From Phytoseiulus persimilis (Eukaryota; Arthropoda; Arachnida; Mesostigmata; Phytoseiidae), in contig CM075101.1 in NCBI GenBank assembly GCA_037576195.1, forward strand, positions 2,852,001 to 2,916,000: a stretch of DNA of 64,000 nt, written 5' to 3'. The position numbers were made by a program, and so were the translations under genes. Below the pieces are notes generated by a model. It was not told the origin of the DNA. It saw nothing but the letters and a program-made list of their open reading frames with translations, and made no database searches. Of this stretch, positions 27,612-57,680 are shown one piece after another. Position 1 is the first letter of the stretch. Every line of letters starts with the position of its first letter.

Positions 27612-28107
27612 ACTTCCCAAGCCTGGAGGGGTGATTCCAGGACCAATCTGATCATTACTTCCTAAGCCTGGAGGGGTGATTCCAGGACCAATCTGATCAT
27701 CACCTTCCAACTCTGGAGGAGTGATTCCGGGACCAGTCTGGCCATTACTTTCCAACTCTGGAGGAGTGATTCCGGGACCAATCTGGCCATTACTTTCCAA
27801 CTCTGTAGGGGTGATTCTGGGACCAATCTGAGCACTATTTCCCAAGTCTGGAGGGGTGATTCCGGGACCAATCTGAGCATTTTTTTCCAACTCTGAAGGG
27901 TTGATTCCGGGGCCAATCTGAGCATTACTTCCCAACTCTGGAGGGGTGATTCCGGTGTCAATCTGAGCATTACTCTCCAACTCTGGAGGGGTGATTCCGT
28001 GACCAATCTGAGCATTACTTTCCAACTCTGGAGGGGTGATTCCGAGACCAATCTGAGCATTACTTCCCAACTCCGGAGGGGTGATTCCGGGGTCAATCTG
28101 ACCATAT
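27612..28107. repeat. 45-bp minisatellite, right part of array
   Basis: About 11 further units, more diverged than the left part (CTCTGGAGGGGTGATTCCGG, GCCTGGAGGGGTGATTCCAG variants), continuing the array split by BEL. Just beyond it, at 28189-28208, lies a perfect palindrome CGGCCGACT-CC-AGTCGGCCG. Confidence 0.93.
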
Positions 28108-28214
28108 TTTTCAAAATCAGAATGCTGACCCAGTGAAGGGAGAAAAGTGCCTCGATGGCAGGGAGCGCCGTCCAACCGCGCGCAGCGCGGCCGACTCCAG
28201 TCGGCCGAGGGCCG

Positions 28215-28860
28215 GCTGGTCTTTCTATATAGCACATGGAAGTATAGACAAGAACAAACATACTTTCGATTGCATGGGAAGCCTCATGTATGGAGAATGC
28301 AAGGCTGACGATTGCATAATTTGAGGAGGAGACGCGAACGCACACGTAGAGGAACTCGATGGTAGGAGAGATCAGAAAGATGCGAAGGACGATACACGAG
28401 GAAAATGTCAGCGATCGACTACATCCTGGTGAACAACCGCGCCCTCGAGAAGGTCTGCTGGATGCAAATAGACGAGACAAGGGAGATCACGGCGATGAGT
28501 GACCATAACCTCAGAACTCTGAAATGCAGCAGCCCCTTCCAAAGAACAGCAGGCATAGTGAAGAAGATAACCCGATATCAGGCCGGAAGAGTAGGGCAGC
28601 TGATATCAGCAGAACTGGAAAGTAAAAAGGCGATAGGATGCGTAACATACGATGACCTCAAAGCCACCATTGAGCGTGGGTTGCGACTCAGCAGTCAACC
28701 CAAGCAAATAACCGATAGACACAGGTGTATGGTACTCCAGACGGATATCGGAACTCGAGAAGGTTCGCAAAGAAAAAAACAAACAATACAGATCGGCTCG
28801 TCGATCAGAGTCGGATGTAAACATTGAGTCTGCCAAGGCGGAATACAGAACCGCCCAACA
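28215..28860 (+). pseudogene. LINE-A copy 2 endonuclease end and linker
   Basis: Matches copy 1: ADDCII, stop, GGDANAHVEELDGRRD (GDxNxH motif intact), an internal deletion and frameshift, then SAIDYILVNNRALEKVCWMQ and AMSDHNL. The linker VYSRRISELEK...KNKQYRSARRSESD (frameshifted near 28735) corresponds to VYSERISELVKIRKIKNRQW of copy 1. Confidence 0.78.
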
Positions 28861-33400: not shown

Positions 33401-34258
33401 GAAAGAGACGTTCCGATTGAGGTCACTATGCAGATCAACGGCCATGCTGTAAAAATGCAAGCGGACTCGGGAAGTGGAATCTCTACAATGCCGCTGTCAG
33501 AATTCAAGAAAATGCTGCCGAATCATCAACTCTACCCAACGGACATTCGCTTGCGCAGCGCAACCGGAGAATCCTTCATGCCGCATGCTCACGCTGTTGA
33601 TGTCGACCATGCTGACGTAAATGCGCAATTACGTCTCTATCTAATCAAGCAGCCTGACTTCCCGAAACTCATAGGAAGAAAGTGGTTGAGGCAAATGAAG
33701 ATCGATATGAACCGCCTTCTGCAAAGCCAGATTAATCAGATCCGGACTTCAAGTTCAGAGATTGACTACAAAACCAAGGCGAAGGAGGTTCTGAAACGCT
33801 ACAAAAATTTGCTGAAGGAAGGCATGGGTTGTATTCCCAACGTCGAGGCCAAACTCGAGTTGACAACGAAAATTCCTCATCCCGTCCAAAGGCGAGCGCG
33901 CCAAGTCGCTCACTCCCTCATCCAGATGACAAACTCCGAACTCGACTACCTGGAAAAGAGCAAGGTCATACAGACGCTCGATGTCAGTGAATGGTCACAT
34001 TCGATAGTGGTTGTCCCCCGCGCGATGGGCGAGAAAGTCGGAATCTGTGGTGATTTCAAAGTTGGAATCAACAGATACCTAAAGTTTGACGATCACCCAC
34101 TCAAAAACATCCGACAAGCTCTAGACAACATCGGAAACGGCCTGCGGTTTTCAAAACTGGACATCTCTAATGCTTTCTTACCCATGCCGGTACGCGAATC
34201 TGACAGAAAGTACCTGGTTGTCAACACGCATCGAGGCCTCTATCAATTCAACAGGATG
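33263..34258 (+). pseudogene. Gypsy-1 protease and first half of reverse transcriptase
   Basis: Protease KMQADSGSGISTMPLSEFKK with D-S-G active site. Then SLIQMTNSELDYLEKSKVI, WSHSIVVVPRAMGEKVGICG and GLRFSKLDISNAFLPMPVRE (RT motif A; Leu-Asp kept), up to GLYQFNRM, where Copia-1 inserts. The frame resumes exactly at 42107 with SNGLSNASDIWQ. Confidence 0.87.
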
Positions 34259-34634
34259 TGTTGAGTAATTGATGTTTCACCCAGAGCAGTCGTCGGCACT
34301 ATCTGAATAGTCAGGGTTGTTCACGGACAATGAGGCGAAACGTCAGTGAACTGGGAGCGTAATTATTGTGCGCCAGCGGTTACCATAAATTACTTGAGAA
34401 AAACTGGGACGTCTGAAGACTGACGTTGGACGCCGGTAATTGCTGTGAATCCCTTCCCCGTCAGTGACTATAAAAGCTAGAATAAAACTTCAGTGTGTTG
34501 GGGGAGCCAAACATTCTGTCCACCAGAATTCTCGTCTTCATTCAGTAGCCGTCCTCTCTAGGCAATCTTGTACGCGCCACCGGTCTTCTCATCCAGCCGC
34601 AAAGAAGCTAGAGCCAGGCCTCAAAGGCTTATCA
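34259..34634 (+). repeat. Copia-1 5' LTR
   Basis: TGTTGAGTAATTG...AGGCTTATCA. It contains TATAAAAG (34469-34476), a likely promoter with RNA start about 30 bp downstream. Confidence 0.93.
34469..34476 (+). promoter_or_regulatory. Copia-1 LTR TATA box
   Basis: GACTATAAAAGCTAG in the 5' LTR; the same motif is present in the 3' LTR at about 41935. Confidence 0.65.
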
Positions 34635-34722: not shown

Positions 34723-35814
34723 ATGTCAAGACAGCAATCCGCCAGAGACGCCCAAGGCCCCCACGGCTTCGTTCACTACGGAATGGACGGTCTCGAAGTT
34801 GATCCAGAACCCAGCTCCAGCACATCCGGAGATCCCATCGTGTGTGGACCAAGACCACGAGTCGCAACCAACATCATCCTAGCACTCGACGGCAAGAACT
34901 ACATACCATGGCGCACAGTCATGCCAACCGTACTAGATGGAGAACCGTATGCCTGGCCTGTAACCATCGGGAAACTCAACCCACCAGCTCCAGATCAAGC
35001 GAACACACCAGAGGGCAAAACGCAAATGAAGAACTACACCATCGGAAACAGAGCTGGGAGGTACGTGCTGATCAATTCGATACACCCGAATCTCGCCACA
35101 TCATTATTCCTCGACAGTGCAGATAAAATAGCGGCACAGGAGATATGGCGCCGAATCAAGAACAAGTTCACGCGCGCAACAGGCACAAGGAAGGGCCTGG
35201 CATTGTCGAAGTTCATGACCTTCGAATACCAGCCAGGACTATCCGTCGGCGATAACCTCCTCGCTTACAAGAAAGTCATCTTCGAGCACAACACAGTTGG
35301 AATCAACATGCCAGACGATGTCTAGTGCTCCAAACTTCTAGAGGCGCTGCCAAGTTCATGGGAGCCGTTCCGACAGGGATGGAGCACCCGACTGGACTCG
35401 GACAAACATCTGGACACACTGACGGATCTAATCGAAGGAAAAGCCATTCGAAGGAACCAAAGTGACGTCAACGAGATCACAGCGATGTTCTCCCGATTCA
35501 ACCCCTCAAGGAATCAACACTTCAGGAGAAGAAACTTCGCCAGAAGATCCAACTACCGACGAACATCTGTGCAATCATCCGAAGTGATATGTTACAATTG
35601 CAATCAACGAGGTCACATGCAGTCAGCCTGCAGACTTCCCCGACAAGGCGGGAATCAACGCAGGGGCGGATTTGGAGGCAGAGGAAGAGGCAGGGGACAA
35701 TCAAGAACACTACCGCCGCAAGCCAACATTGCTGAAGCCCTGATCGTAGAGTGCCAGCAAGCCGAAGTCAATCAGGCAAGTGCTGAAGAGATTTTCGCTG
35801 TTGATAGCGGCTAA
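34723..35814 (+). pseudogene. Copia-1 gag with zinc knuckle and protease start
   Basis: ATG at 34723. LALDGKNYIPWRTVMPTVLD is the Copia Gag entry, followed by AAQEIWRRIKNKFTRATGTR and YKKVIFEHNTVGINMPDDV. TAG at 35323 interrupts the frame, then LLEALPSSWEPFRQGW. The CCHC knuckle is CYNCNQRGHMQSAC, followed by an Arg/Gly-rich RNA-binding tail. It ends at EIFAVDSG (protease D-S-G), where TAA at 35812 and a small indel shift the frame into the pol frame. Confidence 0.87.
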
Positions 35815-35819
35815 AATGG

Positions 35820-38800
35820 ATGACGGACTACAAGCCGTTCGAAGACAACCAAGTGGTCGCACTCGGCGGATCCAACACCCTAAGTGCACAGGGGTCAGGA
35901 ACCGCAATCGTGCCAGTGAACAACGACAACAAGACCACAACGCTATGTCTGAAGGACGCTCTGTACGTACCCAGGCTTCGTAGAAATCTAATCTCAGTTT
36001 CGAAGCTACTAAACGAGAAGTTTCGCATTTTGGTAACTGAGGAGGCCATCATCATACTCCGAGACAACGATGAAGTTCGAGCTGAGCAACAAAATGGATT
36101 GTTCGTGTTCCATGCAAGTGAACCAGTGGAGGGAAACGTTGCGGGACTGAAGAAGAGAGTAAGTCTGAAAGCGGTACATGAAATGTTCGCTCACATCAAC
36201 GTTAAGACCCTCAGGAAAATGCTGAACCGCGGAGGATACGAGATAATCAATGACTTCGTGAAATGTGACGTATTTACCCAAGGTAAGATGCATCGTTCGA
36301 GCAACAGGCCGAAAACCGGGAAAGTGGTAGCTCCAAGACCAGGGTACATACACGCGGACACCTGCGCTATGCGTAAGAGATCTCTTGGAGGAGCGAATCT
36401 GTTTCTCACGCTGACTGACGACATGACACGGTTTCGAAAAGTGTACTTCTTGAAATCAAAGGATCAAGTGCCTGACCACATCGCGGAGTTCGTCAAATGG
36501 TCCCAGAATCAAAGCGGTTTCACCGTGTATCATCTCCACTCAGATGAAGGAACTGAGTTCAAAAATCAGAGAGTGAAGGGGATCATGAGTGCCATCGGAG
36601 CTGATGTAAGTTACTCCCCTCCTTTTACCCCCGAACTTAATGGTATAAGTGAGCGTTTAAATCAATCGTTGCTTGACCTGGCAAGGACCATGCTCATCGA
36701 CAGTGGCCTTCCCAAGTACCTTTGGGCGGAAGCCGTGAGCTTTTCCGCTCATTCGACGAATTGCGTGAAGTTTGTCGAATCAACCGGGAAGACACCGTAC
36801 GAGATGATCATGAGGAGAAAACCATACATCAGTCTCATCAGAGCATTTGGCACGGAGTGCAAGTTTCACAACCGCGCCCCGCAGAGGGACAAGTTGGACA
36901 CCAGAGGATTCCCAGACTACATTGTCGGGATCGACGAAGATGGACTCAGCTATCGTGTGTGGTATCCCGAGACCAGACAGATCGTCAGGACAAAGGACGT
37001 GAAAGTGAGCACCCCCAGTCCACTGGATGAAGGAATCGTCTCAGAGAATGCCGCCGAAGCAGAAGCGCCTGAAGGCAACGGCGAAGAGCAGATCGAAGAA
37101 GCCAATCCGTCAACGGATACCAGAGAGAACGCATCAGCAAGAGAAGAGGCAGCATCCGCGGGCCCAGTGCCGGGAAGAGAATCCTCGAATGAAGGACATG
37201 GCGCCGCAGGAGCGGCTGCCCCAAGTGAAAAACGCAACGAACGGCGCGGGAGATACGAGCTACGAGATCGATCCAAGTTGCGTCCTCCGGAGAGGTACCA
37301 GGCCGGCAGCGCACACGTTGCGATGTGTGTCAGCGAAACAGTAAGCACCGGTGTAAATAATTTGGTTGACGAACCAACATGTATAGAAGATGTTTATAAG
37401 TCCAATGACAGCCAACAGTGGCTTAGTGCAATGGCAGAGGAGATAGCGTCGCTCGATTTCCACAAGGTTTGGGAGCTCACCGAACTCCCGAAAGGCAGGC
37501 GCACAGTCGGGAATCGATGGATCTTCAAGGCAAAAAAAGACGCCCTAGGTAACGTCGAAAGGCTCCGTGCAAGATGGGTCATTCAAGGATTCAGCCAACG
37601 TCCAGGTATAGACTTCACAGAGCTCTACTCGCCTGTAGCTAGGTTCGATACCATCAAAACAATTCTATCAATAGCTGCCAGGGAGAAACTGAAGCTATAC
37701 CAATTCGACGTTAAGACAGCATTTCTGCACTCGGAACTATCGGAAGAAATCTATACGAACCAACCAAAAGGGTTCGAAGATGGAACAAATCGAGTCTGCA
37801 AACTCTTGAAGGCGGTCTACGGCCTTCGTCAGGCACCAAGGGCTTGGAACCTGAAGATCGACCAGGTTCTGACAGGACTTGGACTCACACAGAGCCAAGC
37901 TGATCCTTGCGTGTACTTCACAATTGGCCCAAAACGAATTTTGGTTGCCTTGTACGTTGACGATGGATTGACGGCGAGATCAGACCAAGAGGTCGTGCAG
38001 GAGTTTCTCGAGAGCCTCGGTAAGGAGTTCGAAATCACTTCCAGGAAGTTAGAGTTCTTTCTCGGTCTACATATCGAATCATCAGATGACAACTCCGTCA
38101 TTCGTGTTCACCAATCAAAGTATATCCAAGAGCTGCTAGACAGATTCCAGATGTCAAAATGCAAGGAAACAGCAGTCCCAATGGACAACAGCTACAAGTC
38201 GAATCCCAATGACGAAGTCGAGCCAGAACTGCCGTATCGTTCGATTGTTGGTGGTTTGATGTACCTCACGATTGCGACACGTTTTGACCTCGGTTACGTG
38301 GTGGGATACCTGTCAAGGTTCCTGGATCGTCCCACCAGACGTCTTTGGGATCTCGCATTGAAAGTACTGCGCTACCTCGAAGGTACCAAGACTTTCGGTC
38401 TCCGGTACACGGGAGCGGTCCAGAGCTGCTCGAGTGTTTCAGCGATGCGGATTTCGCTGGCGACGAGCAAACGAGACGGAGCACCACCGGATCACTGATT
38501 CGGTTCGGGGGCGGAGTCATCTCCTGGACAAGCAACCGTCAAGCGTCCGTGACGCTCTCTTCTATGGAGGCGGAGCTTGTGGCCCTTTCTGAAACGCTCA
38601 AGACCGCGATTTGGACTTCGCGTCTACTCGCAGAGCTTGGACATCCAGTCGTGCCGAAGTCGCTCGTTGACAACTAGTCGACGATCGCTCTTGCTGAAAA
38701 CCCATCCTTTCATAAGCGCTCAAAGCACATCGAGGTGAGACACTTCTATTGTCGAGAGAAACTTCAGCGTGGAGAAATTACAATTCATTATTGCCCGACA

Positions 38801-38863
38801 GCACAGAACATTGCTGACATTCTGACGAAGTGCCTGCCTAGAGAAACATTCCAAAGACTTTGA
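35820..38863 (+). pseudogene. Copia-1 pol (protease end, integrase, RT, RNase H)
   Basis: Nearly intact: 890 codons open from 35820. Integrase zinc and core: KCDVFTQGKMHRSS, PGYIHADTC, HLHSDEGTEF and FTPELNGISERLNQSL (D, D, E). RT: LYQFDVKTAFLHSELSEEIY (Asp), KAVYGLRQAPRAWNL and RILVALYVDDGLTARSDQ (Y-V-D-D). A frameshift near 38430 moves to RNase H, LLECFSDADFAGDEQTRRST and SSMEAELVALSET. TAG at 38675 follows, then HKRSKHIEVRHFYCREKLQR, IADILTKCLPRETFQRL and the TGA at 38861. Only three lesions in more than 1000 codons imply recent activity. Confidence 0.92.
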
Positions 38864-38873
38864 TCACTTGCAG

Positions 38874-39380
38874 ATGGAAACCGTCAAGATGACGATCGCA
38901 TTCATCACAGTATACGTGATGGCCAGTAGCGCGTCGGAGTACTTCACATACTCCGACTGTGACACTGATTGCCAGAAGATAAACTGGCCATGCACGATCT
39001 CCCAAACAAATGTGAACAACTTTCCATGCGACTGTGTGGAGCTCGAAGCGAGCTGTCTCAGATTGGCATCAAGAGAAGTTGTATGCCTGATCATAAACAG
39101 GACTGCCGTAGGAGGAGAAGATATTTGGATTCCATACTTCAACCACACACACCCATCAACACCATCGCCCCCAGTGCCCGATCCTGATCGGAGAGATGGA
39201 TATTGGTTCAAATTTTTATCATTATATTTCGTGGTCACAAATGTGATTTCGGTGCTCGCCGGTTTGGTCGTCCTCATAAGATGGATCGGGCGGATTCGAG
39301 CGCGTTCGTACTCTCGCATGCCTGATCCGCCTCTCGAACAGGAGGACGGACCATACCGGTCGACTACCGAGGAGATTTGA
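38874..39380 (+). CDS. Copia-1 envelope-like, Cys-rich single-pass membrane protein
   Basis: Intact gene of 168 codons, 10 nt after the pol stop. ATG 38874 immediately follows TTGCAG, a possible 3' splice site for a subgenomic mRNA. Predicted parts: signal peptide (residues 1-20, KMTIAFITVYVMASSASEY); ectodomain with 7 Cys and N-glycosylation sites (INRT, FNHT); a Pro-rich hinge (THPSTPSPPVP); a transmembrane helix near 115-138 (VVTNVISVLAGLVVLI); and a short basic/acidic cytoplasmic tail. The ectodomain motif GEDIWIPYFNHTHP recurs almost unchanged in Copia-2 (50100-50537), with six aligned Cys. Envelope-like genes after pol are known in plant Sirevirus Copia elements and in errantiviruses, but this protein resembles neither in any motif I can see. 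Role in entry is unproven; a host-derived membrane protein is possible. Confidence 0.78.
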   Translation: METVKMTIAFITVYVMASSASEYFTYSDCDTDCQKINWPCTISQTNVNNFPCDCVELEASCLRLASREVVCLIINRTAVGGEDIWIPYFNHTHPSTPSPPVPDPDRRDGYWFKFLSLYFVVTNVISVLAGLVVLIRWIGRIRARSYSRMPDPPLEQEDGPYRSTTEEI

Positions 39381-39418: not shown

Positions 39419-39424
39419 AATAAA
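39419..39424 (+). terminator. Sense poly(A) signal after envelope-like gene
   Basis: AATAAA about 39 nt after the envelope-like stop. It is internal to Copia-1 and upstream of the 3' LTR, so it could end a separate sense mRNA. It lies 41 nt from the convergent antisense signal. Confidence 0.55.
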
Positions 39425-39475: not shown

Positions 39476-40602
39476 TCAAGCGGAAAAAATCGAGTAGTTG
39501 GAACAAAGTTTTTGTATCTCGGATACATCATGCCCAAATGCTGCGAAACTACTTGGATCATAGTCTCGAGCTGACAAATGATCCGGAGTCGGGATGTGTA
39601 GAGGAATGACGACACAGCGTCGATCCCTGCGGTAGATACAGGTCCGCACGTACGACATCTGGTAACAATGATATCTACGGATATCCAACTCGAATCGCCT
39701 GGGTGGCAAAGTCGACGAAATCGATTTGGTGTTCATTTCCGAAATCGAACTCGAGGAACTCGAGATGGGAACAGCGTCAGTTGTCACCGAATGCTCGGTT
39801 GACTTTGGAGAAGTGAAACGCGCGGTTGTGAAAGTAAAGGGAGGAGTCCGAGATGTTGTGGAAACAGGCAGATTCGAAGTAACAACACCCTCGGCGGTAG
39901 TCAAAAAGGACCGAGTGGTAGTTGTGATCAAGACCGTGGGAACGGGCGTCGTCGGACGCCGCGTAGTCACCCTCGAAGATGTTGTTGGATGAGAAGGTGA
40001 TCGAGTCGGTCCGAAATACGATCTATGGCTGGCCGTGCCAATGATGAGTCGTTGTCGTTGAAGAGCGGAGGTGCCTTGGAGTTGTAGAACTCGGCACCCA
40101 ACGACGAGTCGTCGTGTGACGACGCTCCTCATATCTGGAAGCGCGAGTGGTCGTGGCTGGAGAATGACCCTTAGCGGTCTGATCGGTAATAAACCGATAA
40201 GTGGGTGTCGTCAAAGTCGGTCCCACAGTCGTAATCGGGTTTGGCGTCGCAGCCGGTGTCGGAAATCCGACCGACTGCAGACTCGCGGAATTTCGAGAAC
40301 GCACGGCCTCGCGAACCATGCGTTCCCCCTTCGTGGAAGTTGAGCTGAAGAGGAAAACTGTAGGATAGTAACGGAAAATTGGAATTCAGCTCACACGGAA
40401 ACGTGGTCAAGATATGCAACGACGTCTGAAACGTACCCGAGTAGATTAGGATTCCGAGAACGACCAACAACACAGAAATCACGAACAACAAATATCTCGC
40501 CACTCCACGGGCCGCGCGCAGGTTTAGAGCCATCGATCGAACACTTGTTCCGCTGTTTCGATTCAAAGTGGAATACTCAAGATCAAGCTCTTGGAGTTCC
40601 AT
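39476..40602 (-). pseudogene. Antisense mucin-like type II membrane protein gene in Copia-1
   Basis: Starts ATG 40602. A cytoplasmic N-terminus of ~36 residues is followed by one hydrophobic helix (YLLFVISVLLVVLGILIYSG) and a lumenal/extracellular part. After a frame change near 40340-40390 this becomes a Thr/Ser/Pro-rich mucin-like stalk (PTPAATPNPITTVGPTLTTP, HSPATTTRAS). Another frame change near 40035-40060 leads to more Thr-rich sequence (RVTTRRPTTPVPTVLITTTT) and a Cys-containing C-terminal domain (RRYHCYQMSYVRTCIYRRDR). The first frame change could be a very short intron (GTGAGC...CTACAG, 37 bp); the second looks like a true indel. A weak A/T-rich TATA-like stretch (40715-40730) precedes it. 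No family recognised. Confidence 0.5.
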
Positions 40603-41724: not shown

Positions 41725-42101
41725 TGTTGAGTAATTGATGTTTTACCGAGAGCAGTCGTCGGCACTATCTGAATAGTCAGGGTTGTTCACGGACAATGAG
41801 GCGAAACGTCAGTGAACTGGGAGCGTAATTATTGTGCGCCAGCGGTTACCATAAATTACTAGAGAAAAACTGGGACGTTTGAAGACTGACGTTAGACGCC
41901 GGTAATTGCTGTGAATCCCTTCCCCGTCAGTGACTATAAAAGCTAGAATAAAACTTCGGTGTGTTGGGGGAGCCAAACATTCTGTCCACCAGAATTCTCG
42001 TCTTCATTCAGTAGCCGTCCTCTCTAGGCAAGTCTCGTACGCGCCACCGATCTTCTCATCCAGCCGCAAAGAAGCTAGAGCCAGGCCTCTAAGGCTTATC
42101 A
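41725..42101 (+). repeat. Copia-1 3' LTR
   Basis: 377 bp, TGTTGAGTAATTG...AGGCTTATCA; about ten differences from the 5' LTR. Confidence 0.93.
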
Positions 42102-43364
42102 GGATGTCAAATGGTCTTTCAAATGCATCGGATATATGGCAGAGATTCATTGAAAGCATACTGGCCGGAATCGACGGTGTGGAATGCGTCATAAACGACA
42201 TGATCGTCACAGCGGAAACTGATGACGAACACATGAGACGACTTGAGGAGGTTCTCATCAAGATTGGACAACACGATATCCGCCTGAACCCGGACAAATG
42301 TGTGTTCTTCGAAGATTCGGTTCCTTCTGCGGGTTTCAGCTGAGGCATCAGCAGACTTTCAAATGCGAAGACAAGATCGAGGCAATTCGAGAAGCGCCCT
42401 TTCCTACAATCGTCTCCGAAGTGAATTCGTTTCTCGGGATGACTCAGTTTCTACGCAACGTTCGCACCAAAACTGGCGGATTTGGCTCATCCAATGTACG
42501 CTCTCCTAAAAGACAACGCAAAGTTTGTGTGGACAAAAAAACGCTGACGACGCGTTCCAGGCAATTAAGAACGAATTGTGTTCTCCAAGCGTGCTCACCC
42601 CCTTCGATCCGTCGAAGCCGCTACTGTTGGCAACCGATGCCAACCCGTATGGCATTTCTGCAGTCTTATCGCACCAATTTCCCGACATAGTGAACGTCCG
42701 ATCGCATATTACTCTAGAAGCTTAACAGCAACCGAGAAGAAATATGCTCAGATTAACAAGGAAGCGCTCGGAATACGCTGCGGAGTTGAGAGATTCTTCT
42801 ACTACCTGTTTGATCGAAGATTCACACTGATCACGGATTCGAAACCCCTCGTTCAGATCTTCTCACCTCAGCGAGCCCTTCCTCCCTTGTCAGCGACCAG
42901 GATGCAACATTACTCCATACATCTCATGAACTTCAATTTCGACATCCTCTACCGATCGACACACAACCACGGAAATGCGGATGCATTGTCGCGGCTGCCG
43001 CTCAGAAGCGAAGACCTACCTGAGATGAGCACAATCGATCTTTTCCTGTTGCAACATGCCCAGGATTTGCCTCTAAATATCGATGATATTTCCCGAGTAA
43101 CGGAAAGATCTCATGAGCTGAGTCCGCTTCTGGAAATCCTGAAAAGGACGCCGAGCGAGCAACAAAACCTCGAAGATTTTCGGCATCGACCTAATCAAGT
43201 TCAGCTTGCTTGACAAGTCGGTCATACTGCGGGGTACAGGGTTGTGGTCCCGGAAACATGCAGCCGTCAAGTGCTCACTGAACTTAATGAGGGTCACTAT
43301 GGTGTTCAGAAGATGAGGCCTGGCAAGACAACACGTTTGGTGGCCGACGCTGGACAAGTACCTA
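42102..43364 (+). pseudogene. Gypsy-1 RT end, RNase H and start of integrase
   Basis: Continues the frame cut by Copia-1: DIWQRFIESILAGIDGVECV, INDMIVTAETDDEHMRRLEE (motif C normally Y/F-x-D-D reads I-N-D-M) and IRLNPDKCVFF. A frameshift leads to VNSFLGMTQFLRNV and, after another, FDPSKPLLLATDANPYGISA (RNase H). Then EKKYAQINKEALGIRCGVER and FFYYLFDRRFTLITDSKPLV. Integrase begins at VVPETCSRQVLTELNEGHYG and is cut at 43364 by the mariner. Confidence 0.83.
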
Positions 43365-43493: not shown

Positions 43494-45729
43494 CAGTCGA
43501 ACCTCGACTTACGTCGGTATTTGGTGCCCACGGGAGCGACGTAAGTCGAAAACCGACGTAAGTAGAAATTCTGGTTCTCCCATATCATCAATGGGGTCCA
43601 GGATACATGAACCGGGCCGTTGTTCACCCTCTGGCAACGTGCCTCATAGAAAAGAGTCGTCCCAGCGAGGAAGAAATCGGGGATAAATGGGAAATCAACA
43701 TCAACATTTATTCTTGCGAACGGAAGAAGCTGTCTATCCTCGTTTGTACTGTCTGCTTTTTCTTCTGTTCCATAATTATATGGTATGGGGTGAGTGCGTC
43801 AGTCACTGCGCCGAATATCTTCAAGAAACGTTGACTCTCGGGATCCATAGCTTCGAAAATGGATAGAGCTCGATCCATCAGGAGAAACCTTCTTGCATCT
43901 TTCTCAAACTGGAGCGCCGTGGTCGACTTTCCTCCTCCTCGTCCGTGCTGTCGCGCATGCCTTCTTGGTTGCGCGGATTAGTCAACTCCTCGTTGAAGGG
44001 AGATCCTCAGTGAGGTCATAGAAAGACACGAAATCCTCCTCTTCCAGCTCCAAATCAAGGTCTTTGCTCAGTATGACCAGCTCTGCGCTGATTGTATCCT
44101 CGCCGCGAGGTGCTTCGGTGAATATCACGAACTCAGGGCACAGCCTGAGCCAGGCCCGGTTGAGGCACCGCACTGATACTTCGTTCCAAGCTCGATCGAT
44201 GTTGCACACAGCTATGAAGATATCGAAGTCCTTCCAGAATTCGCGCAGGCCGACACACTCCGTTGAGTCGTAAGCGGCCACTGCTTGCTTGAAGGTGCAG
44301 CGTAAATAAAGCTTCTTGAAATTGGCTATCACCTCTTGGTCCATTGGCTGCAGGAGTGAGGTGGTGTTCGGAGGCAGGTAAACCACAGTGACAGCCTCGT
44401 GAAGATCATTGAGGTTCTTGGGATGTCCAGGTGCATTGTCCAGAAGCAGCAAAATTTTAAAGGGTATCCCTTCGTGGCACATTACCCCCTGACTGCTGGA
44501 ATGAATTGATCGGAGAACCATGATTCGAAGATCGAGCAGGTCACCCAGGCTTTCGGGTTTGATGCCCACACGACAGGAAGACTCGCCTTGGGTTTCTTCC
44601 TGATCGCTCTTGGATTTTGAGATCGGTATACTAATAGGGGTTTCAGTTTGAAATCACCACTGCAGTTTGCTCCGAATAACAGAGTCAGTCGGTCTTTGGC
44701 GGATTTGAAACCTGGCATCGCTTTCTCCTCACGAGCGATGAATGATCAGGCACTCTCGCCTTGAATCTTCACATTATGTAGGCCACGTCGCTCTTTGAAG
44801 TTCATGAACCACCCACAACTTCCGGAGAAATGAGTATTAGATTCTTCCTCATATTTCCGCTTGAGGTCTTCAAATGGGGAAACCAGTTTTTCCTGGATGA
44901 GGGCGGTGTTCAGAGGCACACGGTTGCGGAACGCCGTTTGCATCCATAGATACAGAAGATCTTCCATTTCATCGAAAATTGGCCCGCGTTTCTTGCTGAT
45001 GATACACTGATTCAGGACAGGCGTGTTTCGTTCCAGGTGGTTCAATATACGCTCTTTGTCATGTACGATTGTAGAGACAGTCGTTCGACTGATTTTGAGC
45101 GAGGAGGCGATAGCTGCAACTTTCTCGCCCTTGTAATGCCGCTTCAGTATGGCAAGTTTCTCCTTCAGGTTTATCGTTTGCCTCTTTCTGGGAGCTCTCG
45201 AGGTTGCACCAACTCCCGGCTGGGCAGATGCCATTCTTGACATTTTCTAATTATTCACCTTTTTTCCACTCCAACTGCACTTTCGTTCACATCCCGAAAC
45301 AGATGTTCTGAATCGTTGTCTTGACACAATCAAAGACCAGTGCGATAAATCCGCGCTCGATCAGAGTTCACCATGATTTTAAATTTGACCCTTTCCCAAA
45401 ATCGACCGTTAAGGCGCGTTACGCGAGTTCAACCGCGGAGAAAGTTCCACCATCCAGGATACGTAGTAGTAGGAACTGCAGCGGCCTGGCGATGTCGACG
45501 ATAGTCCTTGACGCTCCACGGACTCGAAATGGACGGTGGAGCCAGTTGAACCTCTCGGTTGAACCTATGCTAACGCGCCTTCAGGATACTGGGAGCTGAC
45601 TGAAGGTTCTTATCAGCGTCTGGTCAACTCAGATTTGATCCCGGGAAGTCAGAAACACCCGAGCCGAAAAAAATGCTCGAAAATAAAACCGACGTAAGTC
45701 CGGAAACGACGTAAGTCGAGGTTCGACTG
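43494..45729 (-). mobile_element. Tigger (pogo-type) DNA transposon
   Basis: 2236 bp, ends CAGTCGAACCTCGACTTACG and the inverse CGTAAGTCGAGGTTCGACTG, TA target duplication (43492-43493, 45730-45731). Subterminal GACGTAAGTCG motifs repeat at both ends. It carries one transposase gene on the minus strand. Confidence 0.93.
43982..45243 (-). pseudogene. Tigger transposase (CENP-B-type HTH, DDE), internally deleted
   Basis: Starts near 45243. Helix-turn-helix: RKRQTINLKEKLAILKRHYK and ISRTTVSTIVHDKERIL, then the CENP-B-type second HTH (LYLWMQTAFRNRVPLNTALI). After GLHNVKIQGESA and an in-frame TGA the sequence jumps to SFIAREEKAMPGFKSAKDRL, so the stretch with the first catalytic Asp is deleted. 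The second Asp is kept in LLLLDNAPGHPKNLNDL, after a frameshift near 44480. TTSLLQPMDQEVIANFKKLY follows, then an acidic C-terminus. Non-functional by the deletion. Confidence 0.9.
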
Positions 45730-50099: not shown

Positions 50100-50537
50100 C
50101 TACAGCCGATTTCCTATACCCGTTGGTAGCGTCTCCGACGCCATGTTTGGAGCACGCATCGGATGCAGCTCGTTGTGCCGTAAACAAGCAATAGTGTTGT
50201 TACGACTGCCGCGTAGATCTGGAGGGAAACTCGTTCCGTTGTGTGGAACAGGTGGCGGTGGTATCGGATGAGTGTAATTGTAGTATGCTATCCAAATATC
50301 TTCACCAGCAACAGTTGTTCTGTTTGGTAGTAGACACGCCACAGTTTGTGATGCACTTTCTATGCAGGTGGCCGTTGAATCGAAACAGTCGATTGGGAAA
50401 TGGACTGGGCTCAGTTCGGATATCATGCATGGTATTTTCTGTTGGATACACCACGGCAAACAATCAGTGCCGTATTGGAAGAACGCGGCGGTTGTTGCCG
50501 CCAGCAGGAGGATACCGATGACTTGTACCTGTAGCAT
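50100..50537 (-). pseudogene. Copia-2 envelope-like, Cys-rich membrane protein (one frameshift)
   Basis: ATG 50537 overlaps the end of pol. Signal peptide (LQVQVIGILLLAATTAAF), then an ectodomain whose six Cys, two glycosylation sites (PNRT, YNYT) and motif GEDIWIAYYNYTHP align with Copia-1's protein. A Pro-rich hinge (IPPPPVPHN) follows. After N-G the open frame runs off into unrelated sequence. The adjacent frame, from about 50240, gives the expected membrane helix (IYAAVVTTLLLVY) and a basic tail with RRRR, stopping near 50125. The gene therefore had the same layout as in Copia-1 and has since shifted frame. Confidence 0.75.
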
Positions 50538-51066
50538 GATTCAGGATGCCAGCTAAGGATCGTAAACGAACAAAGTGAATTTCTGCCAGTGCCTTCGTAC
50601 CAAGATCAGAGATATTTTTACCAGAAGGGCAATGTTCTATTTTGAAATCACCGTTCTCTATCTTCTCCTTGAGCCAAAAATGCCTAGCCTCAATATGCTT
50701 TGATCGTTTTGTTACCTGAGCTTCAGTGAAGAGCTGGATACAACCAGTGTTGTCGATATGCAGTACGGGCCTCACAGGGTATCCGACTTCATGGAGTAGT
50801 CTGGTAACCCAGAGGCAAGACTTTGCCATTTCACTGCACGCGACTATTTCACTCTCCATGCTACTGAGGGTTACACAACTTTGGCGTTGTGATGACCAGA
50901 TTACGATTGCTCCGCCGAAAAGAATGGCTGAGCCGCTTGTACTCCCACGCGTTGTTTTGCAACCTGCCCAGTCCGCATCACAGTATGCGTCGAGTCGGTC
51001 GTGGGTTTCACCAAGATATGTCGGACCAAAGTTTCTTGTACCGGAAAGGTATCGTAATACTTTCAA
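50530..51066 (-). pseudogene. Copia-2 RNase H
   Basis: HDRLDAYCDADWAGCKTTRG, SSMESEIVACSEMAKSCLWV, SKHIEARHFWLKEKIENGDF and NISDLGTKALAEIHFVRL. This is the classical Copia RNase H with its D-A-D-W-A and M-E-S-E motifs. The preceding frame (51008-51364) shifts near 51060. Confidence 0.88.
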
Positions 51067-52141
51067 AACCGGTATTCCAAAGATGACGTGTTGGCTTGTC
51101 CAAATATCTTGAAAGGAAACCGACCGAATAGCTGATATCTCCGCGGCTTGCTATAGAGGCAAACATCAGGCCCCCACAAAGCTCTCGATACTTCAGATTC
51201 AAGTCTATTTCTCCCTCAAATGCTGACTTAGATGTAGCATCAATTGATATAGGTGATACCTTACAGTCAGTCATTTTGAAACGTTCTAGAATCTCAGCTA
51301 TGTATTCGGCTTGATTGATTTGAATCCTCCCTCGGTCTGGTGAGATGTTGACTCTCAGTCCCAAGAAGAATTCTAGAGGCTTGAACGTGAGTTCGAATGT
51401 TTTCTGGAGTTCTTGGAGTATTGCCTTGGTCAGTTGTTAGTCATGTGAACCAATCAGGCAGTCATCCACATAGATTAGGATGAAAACTCTTCGAGGGGGA
51501 TTTGAGAAGTACAGGCATGGATCCTGCTTGCTTCTTTCCAATTCTATTGTCCTCAAAACTCAGCAGAGTGTCGCTCAGCTTCTCATTGAAGCATTTAGGA
51601 GCTTGGACGGTCCCGTAGACCGCTTTCAAAAGCTCACAAACTCTTTTGCTACCGTCCTCAAAGCCGGCTGGCTGCCGCATGTAAAGTTTCCTGTCCAAAG
51701 GAGCTGAGAGGAATGCGGTGCAGACATCTGCCTGAGTGAGAAAGAGATGTTCCCTGGCTGCTACTAGAGAGTACGAGTCGTATCGTCTCAAATCTAGCTA
51801 CAGGGCTGAATGAACTCTCGTAGTCCGAGACCTGGTCGCTGGGCACAGCCACGAACTACAAGTCTCGCTTTTCTTTTGATGATGTTCGCATCCTTGTCAT
51901 TCTTCAAGGTGAACACCCATCGTTCGACAGGACATGCTGTCCTGGAGCCGGCTCAACCAGCTTATGAGCCTGGTTGGATCGGAACGATTCTAGTTCCAAA
52001 GCCATCGCTGCTAACCATTCACTCTTATGTTTTGATCTTTCAACATCTCCTAGACTAACGGGTACGTCTACCTGAGTGTTGGAACTGCCTAGATGTTGGC
52101 TAGTCTGAGAGGTCGTATAACTACACGAGGCATGGTCGGCC
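51008..52141 (-). pseudogene. Copia-2 reverse transcriptase
   Basis: Pieces in order: KHKSEWLAAMALELESF, YESSFSPVARFETIRLVLSS, LTQADVCTAFLSAPLDRKLY (motif A), LLKAVYGTVQAPKCFNEKL, a frameshift near 51480 with the Y-V-D-D region degraded (VDDCLIG in a shifted frame), LGLRVNISPDRGRIQINQAE and IASRGDISYSVGFLSRYLDK. Multiple frameshifts and stops. Confidence 0.85.
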
Positions 52142-55100: not shown

Positions 55101-56440
55101 ACTCTTCTGATGGGGTCTCTGGTCGAAACTGTTTCAGGCGGTCGATGTGTACAATTTCTCGATGCCTGGTCCTTCCCGCCAGTACCGCCGAGTCTTTAGG
55201 TTCTATTTCTACGTCTACCTGGCCTAACTTCCTAGTTACAATGTAAGGTCCAAACCACCTACGATCAGCTTGTCCGACAAGCCGGGTTTTCTCACGGGCG
55301 TGTACAGCATGACCTCGCTGCCCACCGGGAAGCTCTGGGTTTTCTCGTTGAAAGTTCTTGCGATGTTTTTCTCTTTCGCTTGGTCGGCCAGTTCTTTTGC
55401 GAGTTCCCTTGCCATTTTCACGCGTCCCAGCATTCGTTCTGTGTAGAGCGTCCTTGGGTCTTCCGTGGTATCCGCCAGTTGTGGCATTCCTACATCGAAT
55501 ATCGTTCGCGGTTCCCTTCCATGTACCAGCATGAAGGGTGAGTGCTTCGTCGACTCCTGAGGGCGGTATTGTACGCAAACACCACGTGAGGCAGAATCTG
55601 GTCCCAGTTGTCCTGATCTCTGTTCAGGTACTTGCTGATCATGTCTCGATTGTCCTGTGCGACCTTTCCGTTAGTCCGTTGGTCGCCGGGTGATAACCCG
55701 TTGTCCGTCGGTGTTCTAACCGGTAGACCGTGTTCACCTCTCGTAACAAGTGAGACATGAACGCTTGGCCTTGGTCGCTGATGAGGACTCTCGGGACACC
55801 ATGCTGCGAGAACACTCTGTTCACCAGGAAGTTGGCCACCTCTCTGGCTGTCCCATCTGGAAGCGGTTCGGCGATCAAGAATTTGTTAGATGGTCGATAG
55901 CCGTTACTACTACTCGGTTCCCTTGCTGAGACTGGTTGAACGAGATGAGGTCGATTCCAATGGTGTGGAACGGCTCGGTGGGCGTCGTGACGTGCTGCAA
56001 GTTCTGTTGGGGTCCGGTTTTTTGCGTTGCGGCGTTGGCACTCGAAACACGAATAGACAAATTCTTTCGTGTCCCGGTACATTCCTGGCAGAAGTAGCGG
56101 AGTGACAGTCGTCCGTATGTCTTCGCCAGGCCATGTGGCCGGATTGCAGGTGGTCGTGTGCCCCTGCGAGCGCTTCCTGTCTTAGTGGGAGTGGAAGTAC
56201 GATTAGTCTCTCTTCTCCGTTGGGGCCGAAGTTTCGTTTGTACAGGACGTCCTCGTGGATCTCGTATTGGTGGACTTTTCCGGCCAGGTCGAATAGGCGC
56301 CTCAGCCTTGGGTCTCCCCGCTGCAACCTTGCCAGGTCAGCCGGCTCGGCTCGACGCTCGGGGGCGTTTTTCTGGTCCGATGTGATCGCCGTGACTCTTT
56401 GCATCGGGTACCGGGACAGACAGTCAGCGGTCTGCATGCT
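54934..56440 (-). pseudogene. Gypsy-2 integrase with C-terminal CCHC-like extension
   Basis: H2C2 region: HDHLQSGHMAWRR (His) and YSCFECQRRNAKNR (C-x2-C). The catalytic part has LISDQGQAFMSHLL (Asp) and RTTGYHPATNGLTERSHRTI (Glu). The first Asp region (IGIDLISFNQS) is in another frame. C-terminal: REKTRLVGQADRRWFGPYIV and HIDRLKQFRPETPSEESEQ, then MCNMCGRRDRHHIREC, a C-x2-C-xn-H-x3-C motif that lies inside the LTR. At least three frameshifts (near 56400, 56050, 55600). Confidence 0.82.
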
Positions 56441-57680
56441 TTCTTCCTGCTTTGTAAACTATGTTGATGTCGAACTCCTGCAGCTTCAGGGCCCACCGCG
56501 CGAGTCTTCCCGAGAGATCTCTTGCCGACATGAGGTGGCATAGTGCGTTGTGGTCCGTGATTACCGTGATGGGGCGCCCGTACATATAAGGGCGGAATAC
56601 CTGCGTGCTCCACACGATGCCGAGACATTCCTTCTCCGACGTAGAGTAGTTCTGCTCGGCCTTCGTTAGTGTGCGGCTGGCGTATGTCACCACAGCTGTC
56701 GCGTTGTCCTTGTCACGTCGTTGTGTCAGAATAAGCCCGATTCCATATCCGCTGGCATCCGAATGCACCGTCACCGGTTTCTTGGGGTCGAAGGGCACCA
56801 GGAGTGGAGGTGAGATGAGCGCCTCCTGAGTCTCTCGAATGCTGAATTTGCGCCTCTCCCCACTCGAACGGGTCTCCTTCGTTGTGAGCGGCGTGCTGGG
56901 CCTAGCGATTTTGCGAAGTCTGGAATAATCGCCTGTAGAATGAGTCAAAGACCAACGAGAACTTCTCACTCCTTGAGGCTCTTGGGCAACCGGGAACGAC
57001 CTCACTGCCTCGATCTTCGCTGGGGTCTGGAAGCACGCCCTCGGTATTGATAGAGTGCCCAAGCAGCTGGAGTTTACCTTCCTTGCGAGATGGCATTTCT
57101 TGAGATTCAACGACAGATTCGCCTCGTCCAAGCATCCCAACACGTCTTCCAGCCGTTCGGTTGTGCTCTTTCCAGGTCGGCCGAACACGCAGACGTCGTC
57201 CAGGTAGACGAGGCAGGAGTACCATTTCCTGCCCCTGAGAACCGTATCCATCAGCCTCTCGAACGTCGCTGGGGCTTCCGGTCAATCCGAACGGCCAGTC
57301 GGTTGAACTCGTACAAACCCGTCGTTTGTGATGAATGCCGTCTTTTCTCTGTCCTGCTCCGCCACTGCGCACTGGTAGGTATCCTTGCTTGAGGTCGAGG
57401 GACGAGAAGAACTGGGCTCCGGAGAGACAGTCCAGGGCGTCGTCTATCTCGGGGTATTGCGTAGACGTCCTTCTTTGTTACCTTGTTCAGCTCCCGGTAG
57501 TCCACGCAGAATCTGTACTCCCCTGTCTTCTTTTTCACCAGCACAACCGGGGAGCACCACGGGCTGCTCGACTCGCGGATGATTCCCTCCCTTCAGAATC
57601 CGCTTCACCTCCGTCGCCATGGCCTCTCGCTCGATCGGGGCGTATCTTCGGTTGTACCTGCGGGACACCGGTGCGGACTC
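56424..57680 (-). pseudogene. Gypsy-2 reverse transcriptase and RNase H
   Basis: [40 protein letters not shown], a broken motif A region (57340-57470), [29 protein letters not shown] (Y-L-D-D) and LSLNLKKCHLARKV. After a frameshifted patch: PVTVHSDASGYGIGLILTQR and YSTSEKECLGIVWSTQVFRP (RNase H), then LQEFDINIVYKAGRKHADR. Confidence 0.87.

Follow-up and report, generated by a model that had tools for sequence, protein, structure and literature searches.

The window, by which the whole analysed stretch of 64,000 nucleotides is meant, contains a retrotransposon, Copia-1, whose LTRs end in TG...CA, share 97.4% identity over 378 aligned columns and are flanked on both sides by the 5-bp sequence GGATG. 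Its gag, pol and a third gene are read from the forward strand, an antisense gene with a predicted intron lies between the third gene and the 3' LTR, and parts of a second element, Copia-2, lie on the reverse strand. The features are listed below by position, strand and content, with the basis of the assignment in brackets.

34254..34258, no strand: 5' copy of the target-site duplication, GGATG (direct reading)
34259..34634, + strand: Copia-1 5' LTR, TG...CA (alignment to the 3' LTR; ends read)
34723..35811, + strand: Copia-1 gag, with an in-frame TAG at 35323-35325 (ORF list, frame map)
35808..38864, + strand: Copia-1 pol, with a frame change before 38498 and a TAG at 38675 (Pfam, frame map)
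38874..39380, + strand: Copia-1 third gene, encoding a small putative type I membrane protein (ORF, homologues, structure prediction)
39419..39424, + strand: AATAAA, 38 nt past the third-gene stop and before the antisense gene (direct reading)
39476..40357, - strand: antisense gene exon 2, Ser/Thr-rich stalk and C-terminal Cys domain (broken here, open in other copies)
40358..40436, - strand: predicted antisense intron of 79 nt, GTACGT ... CCTACAG, phase 1 (sequence reading)
40437..40602, - strand: antisense gene exon 1 of 166 nt, N-terminal tail and membrane anchor (ORF list, sequence reading)
41725..42101, + strand: Copia-1 3' LTR (LTR comparison, direct reading)
42102..42106, no strand: 3' copy of the target-site duplication, GGATG (direct reading)
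50100..50537, - strand: Copia-2 third gene (signal and Cys domain present; membrane helix and tail out of frame)
50467..51150, - strand: end of Copia-2 pol (overlaps the third-gene start in another frame; pol broken in several frames)

The Copia-1 pol ORF matches SH3_retrovirus (332-396), RVT_2 (549-788) and Pol_BBD above the Pfam cut-offs, while the integrase core rve (178-271, E 4.1e-5) falls under its curated cut-off, as does a match of gag to Retrotran_gag_2. Because the integrase precedes the RVT_2 reverse transcriptase (RT) in pol, the element belongs to Copia (Pseudoviridae). Its LTR has at least 40 matches in the genome (40 of 91 candidates scored). The window copy is damaged by the stop in gag at 35323, by the frame change and the stop at 38675 in pol, and by breaks in the antisense gene, and its third gene begins 10 nt past the pol stop. 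A 151-aa open frame also runs opposite the third gene (38864-39319, - strand), and it contains stops in other copies of the family to which Copia-1 belongs, designated family A below.

A preliminary description of this DNA had proposed that Copia-1 encodes an envelope-like membrane protein after pol and that Copia-2 encodes a counterpart. The third ORF is indeed real and directly follows pol in Copia-1, and its 168-aa product has a hydrophobic, signal-like N-terminus, a Cys-rich ectodomain, a Pro-rich hinge, a membrane helix and a short tail, together with two N-glycosylation sequons. The Copia-2 protein aligns to it over the signal, six Cys and the G-E-D-I-W ... T-H-P motif, in agreement with the earlier claim, and groups by alignment with a second family, C. 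The RTs of the two elements are clearly diverged, as had also been stated, with 32% identity to Copia-1 for the broken Copia-2 copy of the window and 44-47% for better copies of its family (L021, L041 and L042). The same order of domains had been read in both elements, and here the result is divided: the window Copia-2 ORF leaves its family's reading frame past the hinge and has neither a membrane helix (best 19-residue hydropathy -0.2) nor the tail motif, but both are present in L021, a member of the same family.

Collecting copies genome-wide had been proposed as a check, and the third gene proves to be widespread. The genome searched comprises 181 Mb in 127 contigs, of which the four large contigs met measure 28-55 Mb. 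Searched with the 168-aa Copia-1 protein, it has at least 151 matches (150 of 223 candidates scored). A distantly related query, taken from family H, has at least 143 (150 of 158 scored) and recovered Copia-1 at E = 3.6e-15. Sixty-eight loci were read, eight from the search output and 60 chosen to span the match list, and an ORF of 160-170 aa is intact in 48 of them. When clustered at 80% identity, these 48 ORFs form eight families (A-H), with 21-54% identity between families. Same-strand Copia RT is found in the upstream DNA of 59 of the 68 loci. A large protein collection holds five relatives of the third protein, none of them named, and one of these (P0004) is, by eye, nearly identical to locus L066. 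The host genome has 23 matches to Wnt and 112 to the cuticle domain Chitin_bind_4, which identify the host as an arthropod, and the term animal Copia used in the preliminary description is therefore apt. A search of the whole genome for six consecutive exact TTAGG units or five of TTAGGC found neither, though the host is an arthropod. At one site (G000:C1:1924264-1940433), two family A elements stand in tandem and share the middle LTR (LTRs at 1924264, 1932159 and 1940056).

The anatomy of the third protein is well preserved among the 48 intact copies, with a hydrophobic N-terminus in all 48 and a membrane helix in 46, while the tail past the helix carries YxxPhi in 48 of 48 and P-Y-x-x-T near its end in 45 of 48. 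In an alignment of 11 sequences (one each from families A, B, C, F, G and H and the five outside relatives), the invariant residues are M1, F24, C29, C33, C40, F50, C54, C61, C71, G81, W85, Y161 and T164. The six-Cys ectodomain is compact (about 65 residues), about 85 residues extend from the signal-like segment to the helix, and three to seven Lys or Arg lie within 18 residues past the helix in the eight family representatives and five outside homologues. Conservation of both the Cys and the glycosylation sites had been claimed for the ectodomain; the six Cys are common to the families, but the sequons, present in 41 of the 48 intact copies, shift in position from family to family and occur in none of the four copies of G and H. 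AlphaFold2 models of seven sequences contain a compact ectodomain (pLDDT about 82-94 per block) with a helix at 31-36, strands at 40-43, 52-54 and 69-72, and helices at 58-64 and 85-90; the hinge and tail are of low confidence, and the whole-protein pTM is 0.44. Searches with the third protein gave no PDB or BFVD fold match at E <= 0.001 and no significant PDB-sequence match, and a scan of 15 members found no Pfam family above cut-off (the best, at E 0.0023, being a low-complexity repeat family). Neither the small protein nor five of the antisense proteins described below matched a curated glycoprotein family above the Pfam cut-off. With its topology read from hydropathy, we infer that the third protein has the make-up of a small type I membrane protein. 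Of the envelope-like character first attributed to it, a predicted small surface protein is what stands, and family, PDB-sequence and fold searches gave no match to fusion proteins.

Selection on the third gene is evident within families. In the seven families with two or more copies, pooled within-family pN/pS is 0.27 (A), 0.56 (B), 0.57 (C), 0.30 (D), 0.51 (E), 0.31 (F) and 0.36 (G). In 100 bootstrap resamples the upper limit stays under 1 for A, B, D and F but reaches or exceeds 1 for C, E and G. As a control, reading in the +1 and +2 frames gives 0.77-1.48 in A, B, D, E and F, and the two frames of family G give 0.46 and 3.2 on very few changes. The -1 frame gives 0.30-0.45 in A, B, D, E and F but contains stops, and its low values are those that codon mirroring predicts. 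RT in the same families has a pN/pS of 0.00-0.33 (2-8 loci each); constraint on the third gene is weaker than on RT, yet clear, and neutral evolution of the third gene is refuted. Most comparisons between families are close to saturation at synonymous sites or past it. Trees of RT and of the third gene, built from the same 19 loci with G and H set as outgroup in both (H being a single long-branched row), share the groups {G,H}, {A}, {F} and {B,C,D,E}; family A has support of 88/96 in the third-gene tree, and the branching order of A and F relative to {B,C,D,E} is weakly resolved. The preliminary description had argued for long-term selection across diverged elements, and the pN/pS values, the congruent trees and the synonymous saturation bear this out. 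It had also named absence of the ORF from the lineages, dN/dS near 1 and a single recent conversion as outcomes that would speak against the idea, and none of these appeared within this genome.

The position of the third gene is equally regular. In 23 of 26 copies examined, spanning all eight families, its start codon falls within pol, 10-71 nt before pol ends, and is read in a different frame; in the remaining three (the window copy, L022 and L033) pol is not open at the third-gene start. At least 14 copies from four families have the gene, whether intact or broken, between a pair of LTRs, with pairs of longer span left out of the count. Six belong to family A (the window copy, C2 6779023/6786572, C1 1924264/1932159, C1 1932159/1940056, C4 540502/550365 and C2 5447478/5464815; 40 of 91 candidates scored), four to B (C1 1949645/1959551 and C3 16519031/16528947, 16476631/16485897 and 23586500/23596439), three to D (C3 33992200/34002526, C2 6918125/6928777 and C3 16508198/16518554) and one to G (L059, with a 5-bp CGAGA duplication read by eye from its flanks). 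Among the pieces compared, no LTR pairs were found for E, F or H. One D copy (over 345 bp) and one G copy (over 235 bp) have LTRs that are 100% identical after rounding, and these copies have therefore moved recently. Taken together, the third gene is co-inherited with pol, is under purifying selection and lies within the LTRs.

The larger finding, overlooked in the preliminary description, is that antisense genes for predicted membrane proteins lie beside the third gene. The stretch from the third gene to the 3' LTR measures 2.3 kb in the window element; in a B copy and a D copy it is about 4.7-5.0 kb. In the A-E copies that have the third-gene stop in place, the antisense gene converges on the third gene and ends 37-97 nt past this stop; its predicted product in these five families is rich in Ser and Thr, is anchored in the membrane near its N-terminus and ends in a conserved Cys domain. 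The 218-aa antisense part from the window, used as a query, has 50 genome matches including fragments, 17 of which are open over 324-326 codons. Families B, C and E have single antisense ORFs of 436, 502 and 536 aa, in which the strongest hydrophobic segment is near the N-terminus and Ser, Thr and Pro make up 37-38% of residues. In single comparisons, the C-terminal domain of B has 41% identity to that of E (E = 9e-22) and 41% to that of C (E = 2e-21), and the window domain has 24% identity to that of E (E = 4e-7). The family G antisense ORF is alike in place and kind only, with its stop 231-240 nt away. The downstream DNA examined, about 0.8 kb per locus and 3 kb at one locus of each family, showed no antisense ORF with the conserved domain in F (11 loci) or H (2 loci), and the sense/antisense pair is thus not universal. 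Antisense pN/pS is 0.32-0.52 in six families (A-E and G), with a shifted-frame control that is blurred by indels.

In family A, the anchor and the stalk of the antisense protein are in different frames, split by a putative intron of 79-80 nt with GT(A/G)(T/C)GT on the donor side, a CCTACAG end and phase 1. This putative intron is found in seven of the eight family A loci with 1.5 kb of downstream DNA examined, the eighth (L002) having no exon 1 there. In the seven, exon 2 is open to its conserved end in four, meets no stop within the examined DNA in one and is broken in two, including the window copy. How antisense genes survive in an element that is copied through RNA is a question of some interest, and the antisense intron can persist because the sense genomic RNA should not lose it by splicing. 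Of nine copies examined for poly(A) signals, eight (all of those from A-E) have a sense AATAAA or ATTAAA 10-38 nt past the third gene, which the G copy lacks. On the antisense strand, a poly(A) signal is present in the copies from A, C, D and G and was seen neither in the two from B nor in the one from E.

Further ORFs are found in some families. A second antisense ORF in B, C and D (L069 173-940, + strand; L070; L071 132-752, + strand) has a hydrophobic segment at the C-terminus, which in D is weak (1.45), together with heptads like those of a coiled coil, whose observed score is reached by 1 (B), 10 (C) and 0 (D) of 200 shuffles. The B protein matches those of C and D at E 6.7e-9 to 1.3e-4 with 18-22% identity, values that the composition of a coiled coil may inflate, and the ORF lies within the LTRs in both B and D. 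Family B alone has a 229-aa sense ORF directly before the 3' LTR (L082 440-1126, - strand), with 24 matches including fragments. No Pfam family above cut-off was found for either the coiled-coil ORF or the 229-aa ORF.

Gypsy elements and plant Sireviruses are known to have envelope-like genes, as are BEL elements. To our knowledge, none has been described for an animal Copia element, and we know of no transmission system for the Copia superfamily in animals. Among the titles and abstract openings listed in searches of open-licence papers, none describes such a gene in animal Copia. Plant Sireviruses resemble the present elements in being Copia elements that often have an extra envelope-like gene, and they are called plant-specific by those who described them (PMC3599292).

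In the Drosophila MDG1 group, the small membrane protein sORF2 is described as enabling capsids to move from somatic cells into the oocyte, and genes of the sORF2/FAST-like kind lie downstream of pol in 7 of 22 Lepidoptera consensus sequences (PMC11952523). Like sORF2 of this group (412, Stalker2), the third protein is a short LTR-element protein whose N-terminal part lies outside and is followed by a single membrane helix and then by basic residues; unlike sORF2, it is encoded by a third gene in Copia rather than Gypsy, and it has a signal-like N-terminus instead of the N-myristoylation motif found in many sORF2 proteins (PMC11952523). This motif, MGxxxS/T, was a search criterion of those authors and is present in four of their six MDG1 sORF2 proteins (PMC11952523), whereas an MG start occurs in the representatives of none of the eight families. 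FAST and sORF2 proteins have a total length of 63-107 aa and an ectodomain of about 30 aa (PMC11952523), roughly a third of the length of the third-protein ectodomain. Because it has no myristoylation motif and a longer ectodomain, the third protein, judged by its sequence, is not a member of the FAST/sORF2 group.

Other LTR elements have acquired surface genes of traceable origin, and the envelopes of errantiviruses, Anakin and bdelloid TelKA have been traced to baculoviruses, chuviruses and paramyxoviruses, that of TelKA being about 600 aa (PMC12440569, PMC5408684). The present elements are like these in having what may be an acquired surface gene, but the third protein is 168 aa long and has no recognisable viral source. 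Bdelloid Vesta4 has an ORF3 of 220-230 aa with membrane segments and Cys and with no env relation detectable according to the consulted part of its source (PMC5408684). It is similar in being a short third ORF, but differs in having two membrane regions, RXXR and a coiled coil, and Vesta is not described as Copia in that part of the source (PMC5408684). Antisense ORFs between pol and the 3' LTR are described for plant Retand, Grande and RIRE2; those of Retand mostly encode TRP28, a putative DNA-binding protein, and the sense ORFs of the region are described, in the part of the source used, as having no putative transmembrane region (PMC11963269). In contrast, the arthropod antisense genes encode predicted membrane proteins.

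The conservation of an extra surface-protein gene with an antisense partner suggests that these elements may contact or pass between cells. As to function, the likeliest role of the third and antisense proteins is a two-component surface module that passes capsids between cells, a reading to which we would give a little less than an even chance. Both proteins would reach the cell surface and form the contact module. Extending to another cell and binding it would be the task of the mucin-like antisense protein, while the small sense protein would gather with capsids at the membrane and aid their transfer, for example from somatic cells to the oocyte, as sORF2 does. A shorter transcript, able to end at the poly(A) signal just past the gene, could serve to make the sense protein, and the antisense protein would have a transcript to itself, spliced in family A. 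The model is drawn from genome sequence, with the topology of both proteins taken from hydropathy, and neither protein has a sequence or fold match to any known fusion or attachment protein. If true, Copia evolved cell-surface contact independently, by means of two protein families without recognised relatives that are encoded as a convergent pair.

The same lack of a fusion-protein hallmark in family and fold searches would also fit a protein that acts within its cell of origin, taking Gag to membranes, promoting the budding of vesicles or blocking a second like element. On this view the protein would work through its tail, which has YxxPhi, PYxxT and basic residues, and the two motifs are among its best-kept features. 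However, the ectodomain Cys pattern, the G-x-x-x-W region and the hinge prolines are conserved about as strictly as the tail, which argues for a job outside the cell, and families A-E pair the protein with a second one bearing a long Ser/Thr-rich outer stalk. An activity confined to the producing cell seems rather unlikely, though it deserves serious weight.

Improbable, in our estimation, is a true entry glycoprotein, that is, a fusogen of a new class on infectious enveloped particles of a Copia virus. The retrovirus-like order of gag, pol and third gene, with a start overlapping pol, is what such a virus might have, and the type I topology suggested by sequence, the second, attachment-like protein and the recent movement of the D and G copies with identical LTRs point the same way. 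Yet class I-III fusion proteins are larger, and 168 aa is small beside them; the absence of a fold match and of a Pfam glycoprotein family above cut-off also speaks against it, although a new class might give none either.

A further reading, which we consider very improbable, is that the element took the extra genes from its host or merely carries them along with no function of their own in it. Neither protein has a recognised outside family, which leaves room for an origin from host genes, and LTR elements are known to take up extra ORFs in bdelloid rotifers (PMC5408684). Against this stand the purifying selection, the congruent trees, the conservation across synonymously saturated families and the linkage of 59 of the 68 loci to same-strand Copia RT, and the part of the proposal that denies a function is largely refuted. 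Finally, a chance ORF made common to Copia-1 and Copia-2 by recent gene conversion could be entertained when the two window copies alone were known, but it is refuted by the eight families, the saturated synonymous differences in most pairs and the agreement of the RT and third-gene trees, which together exclude a recent single conversion, and it keeps practically no weight.

Returning to the two-component surface module, a wider reading may be offered, with somewhat more reserve than the module itself: animal Copia elements may be complex retrovirus-like systems, as long as 10-11 kb, in which genes of both strands form a new machinery that moves capsids between cells. The sense strand would provide gag, pol and the small type I surface protein, and the antisense strand the mucin-like anchored protein, spliced in one family, and a coiled-coil membrane protein in three. 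With many intact and some recently moved copies in a small arthropod genome, these elements offer a system in which to study how retroelements lacking a classical envelope pass between cells.

The window holds other repeats beside the two Copia elements. DNA-transposon pieces with CENP-B_N, HTH_Tnp_Tc5 and DDE_1 matches lie at 43982-45243 (- strand) and are Pogo/Tigger-like, and a piece with RT_RNaseH and RT_RNaseH_2 matches at 56424-57251 (- strand) probably comes from a Gypsy element. An open frame at 27662-28261 (- strand) is built of a repeated 'PESPLQSWK'-like unit that resembles a dispersed tandem repeat, and it recurs downstream of Copia copies (L042 and L074).
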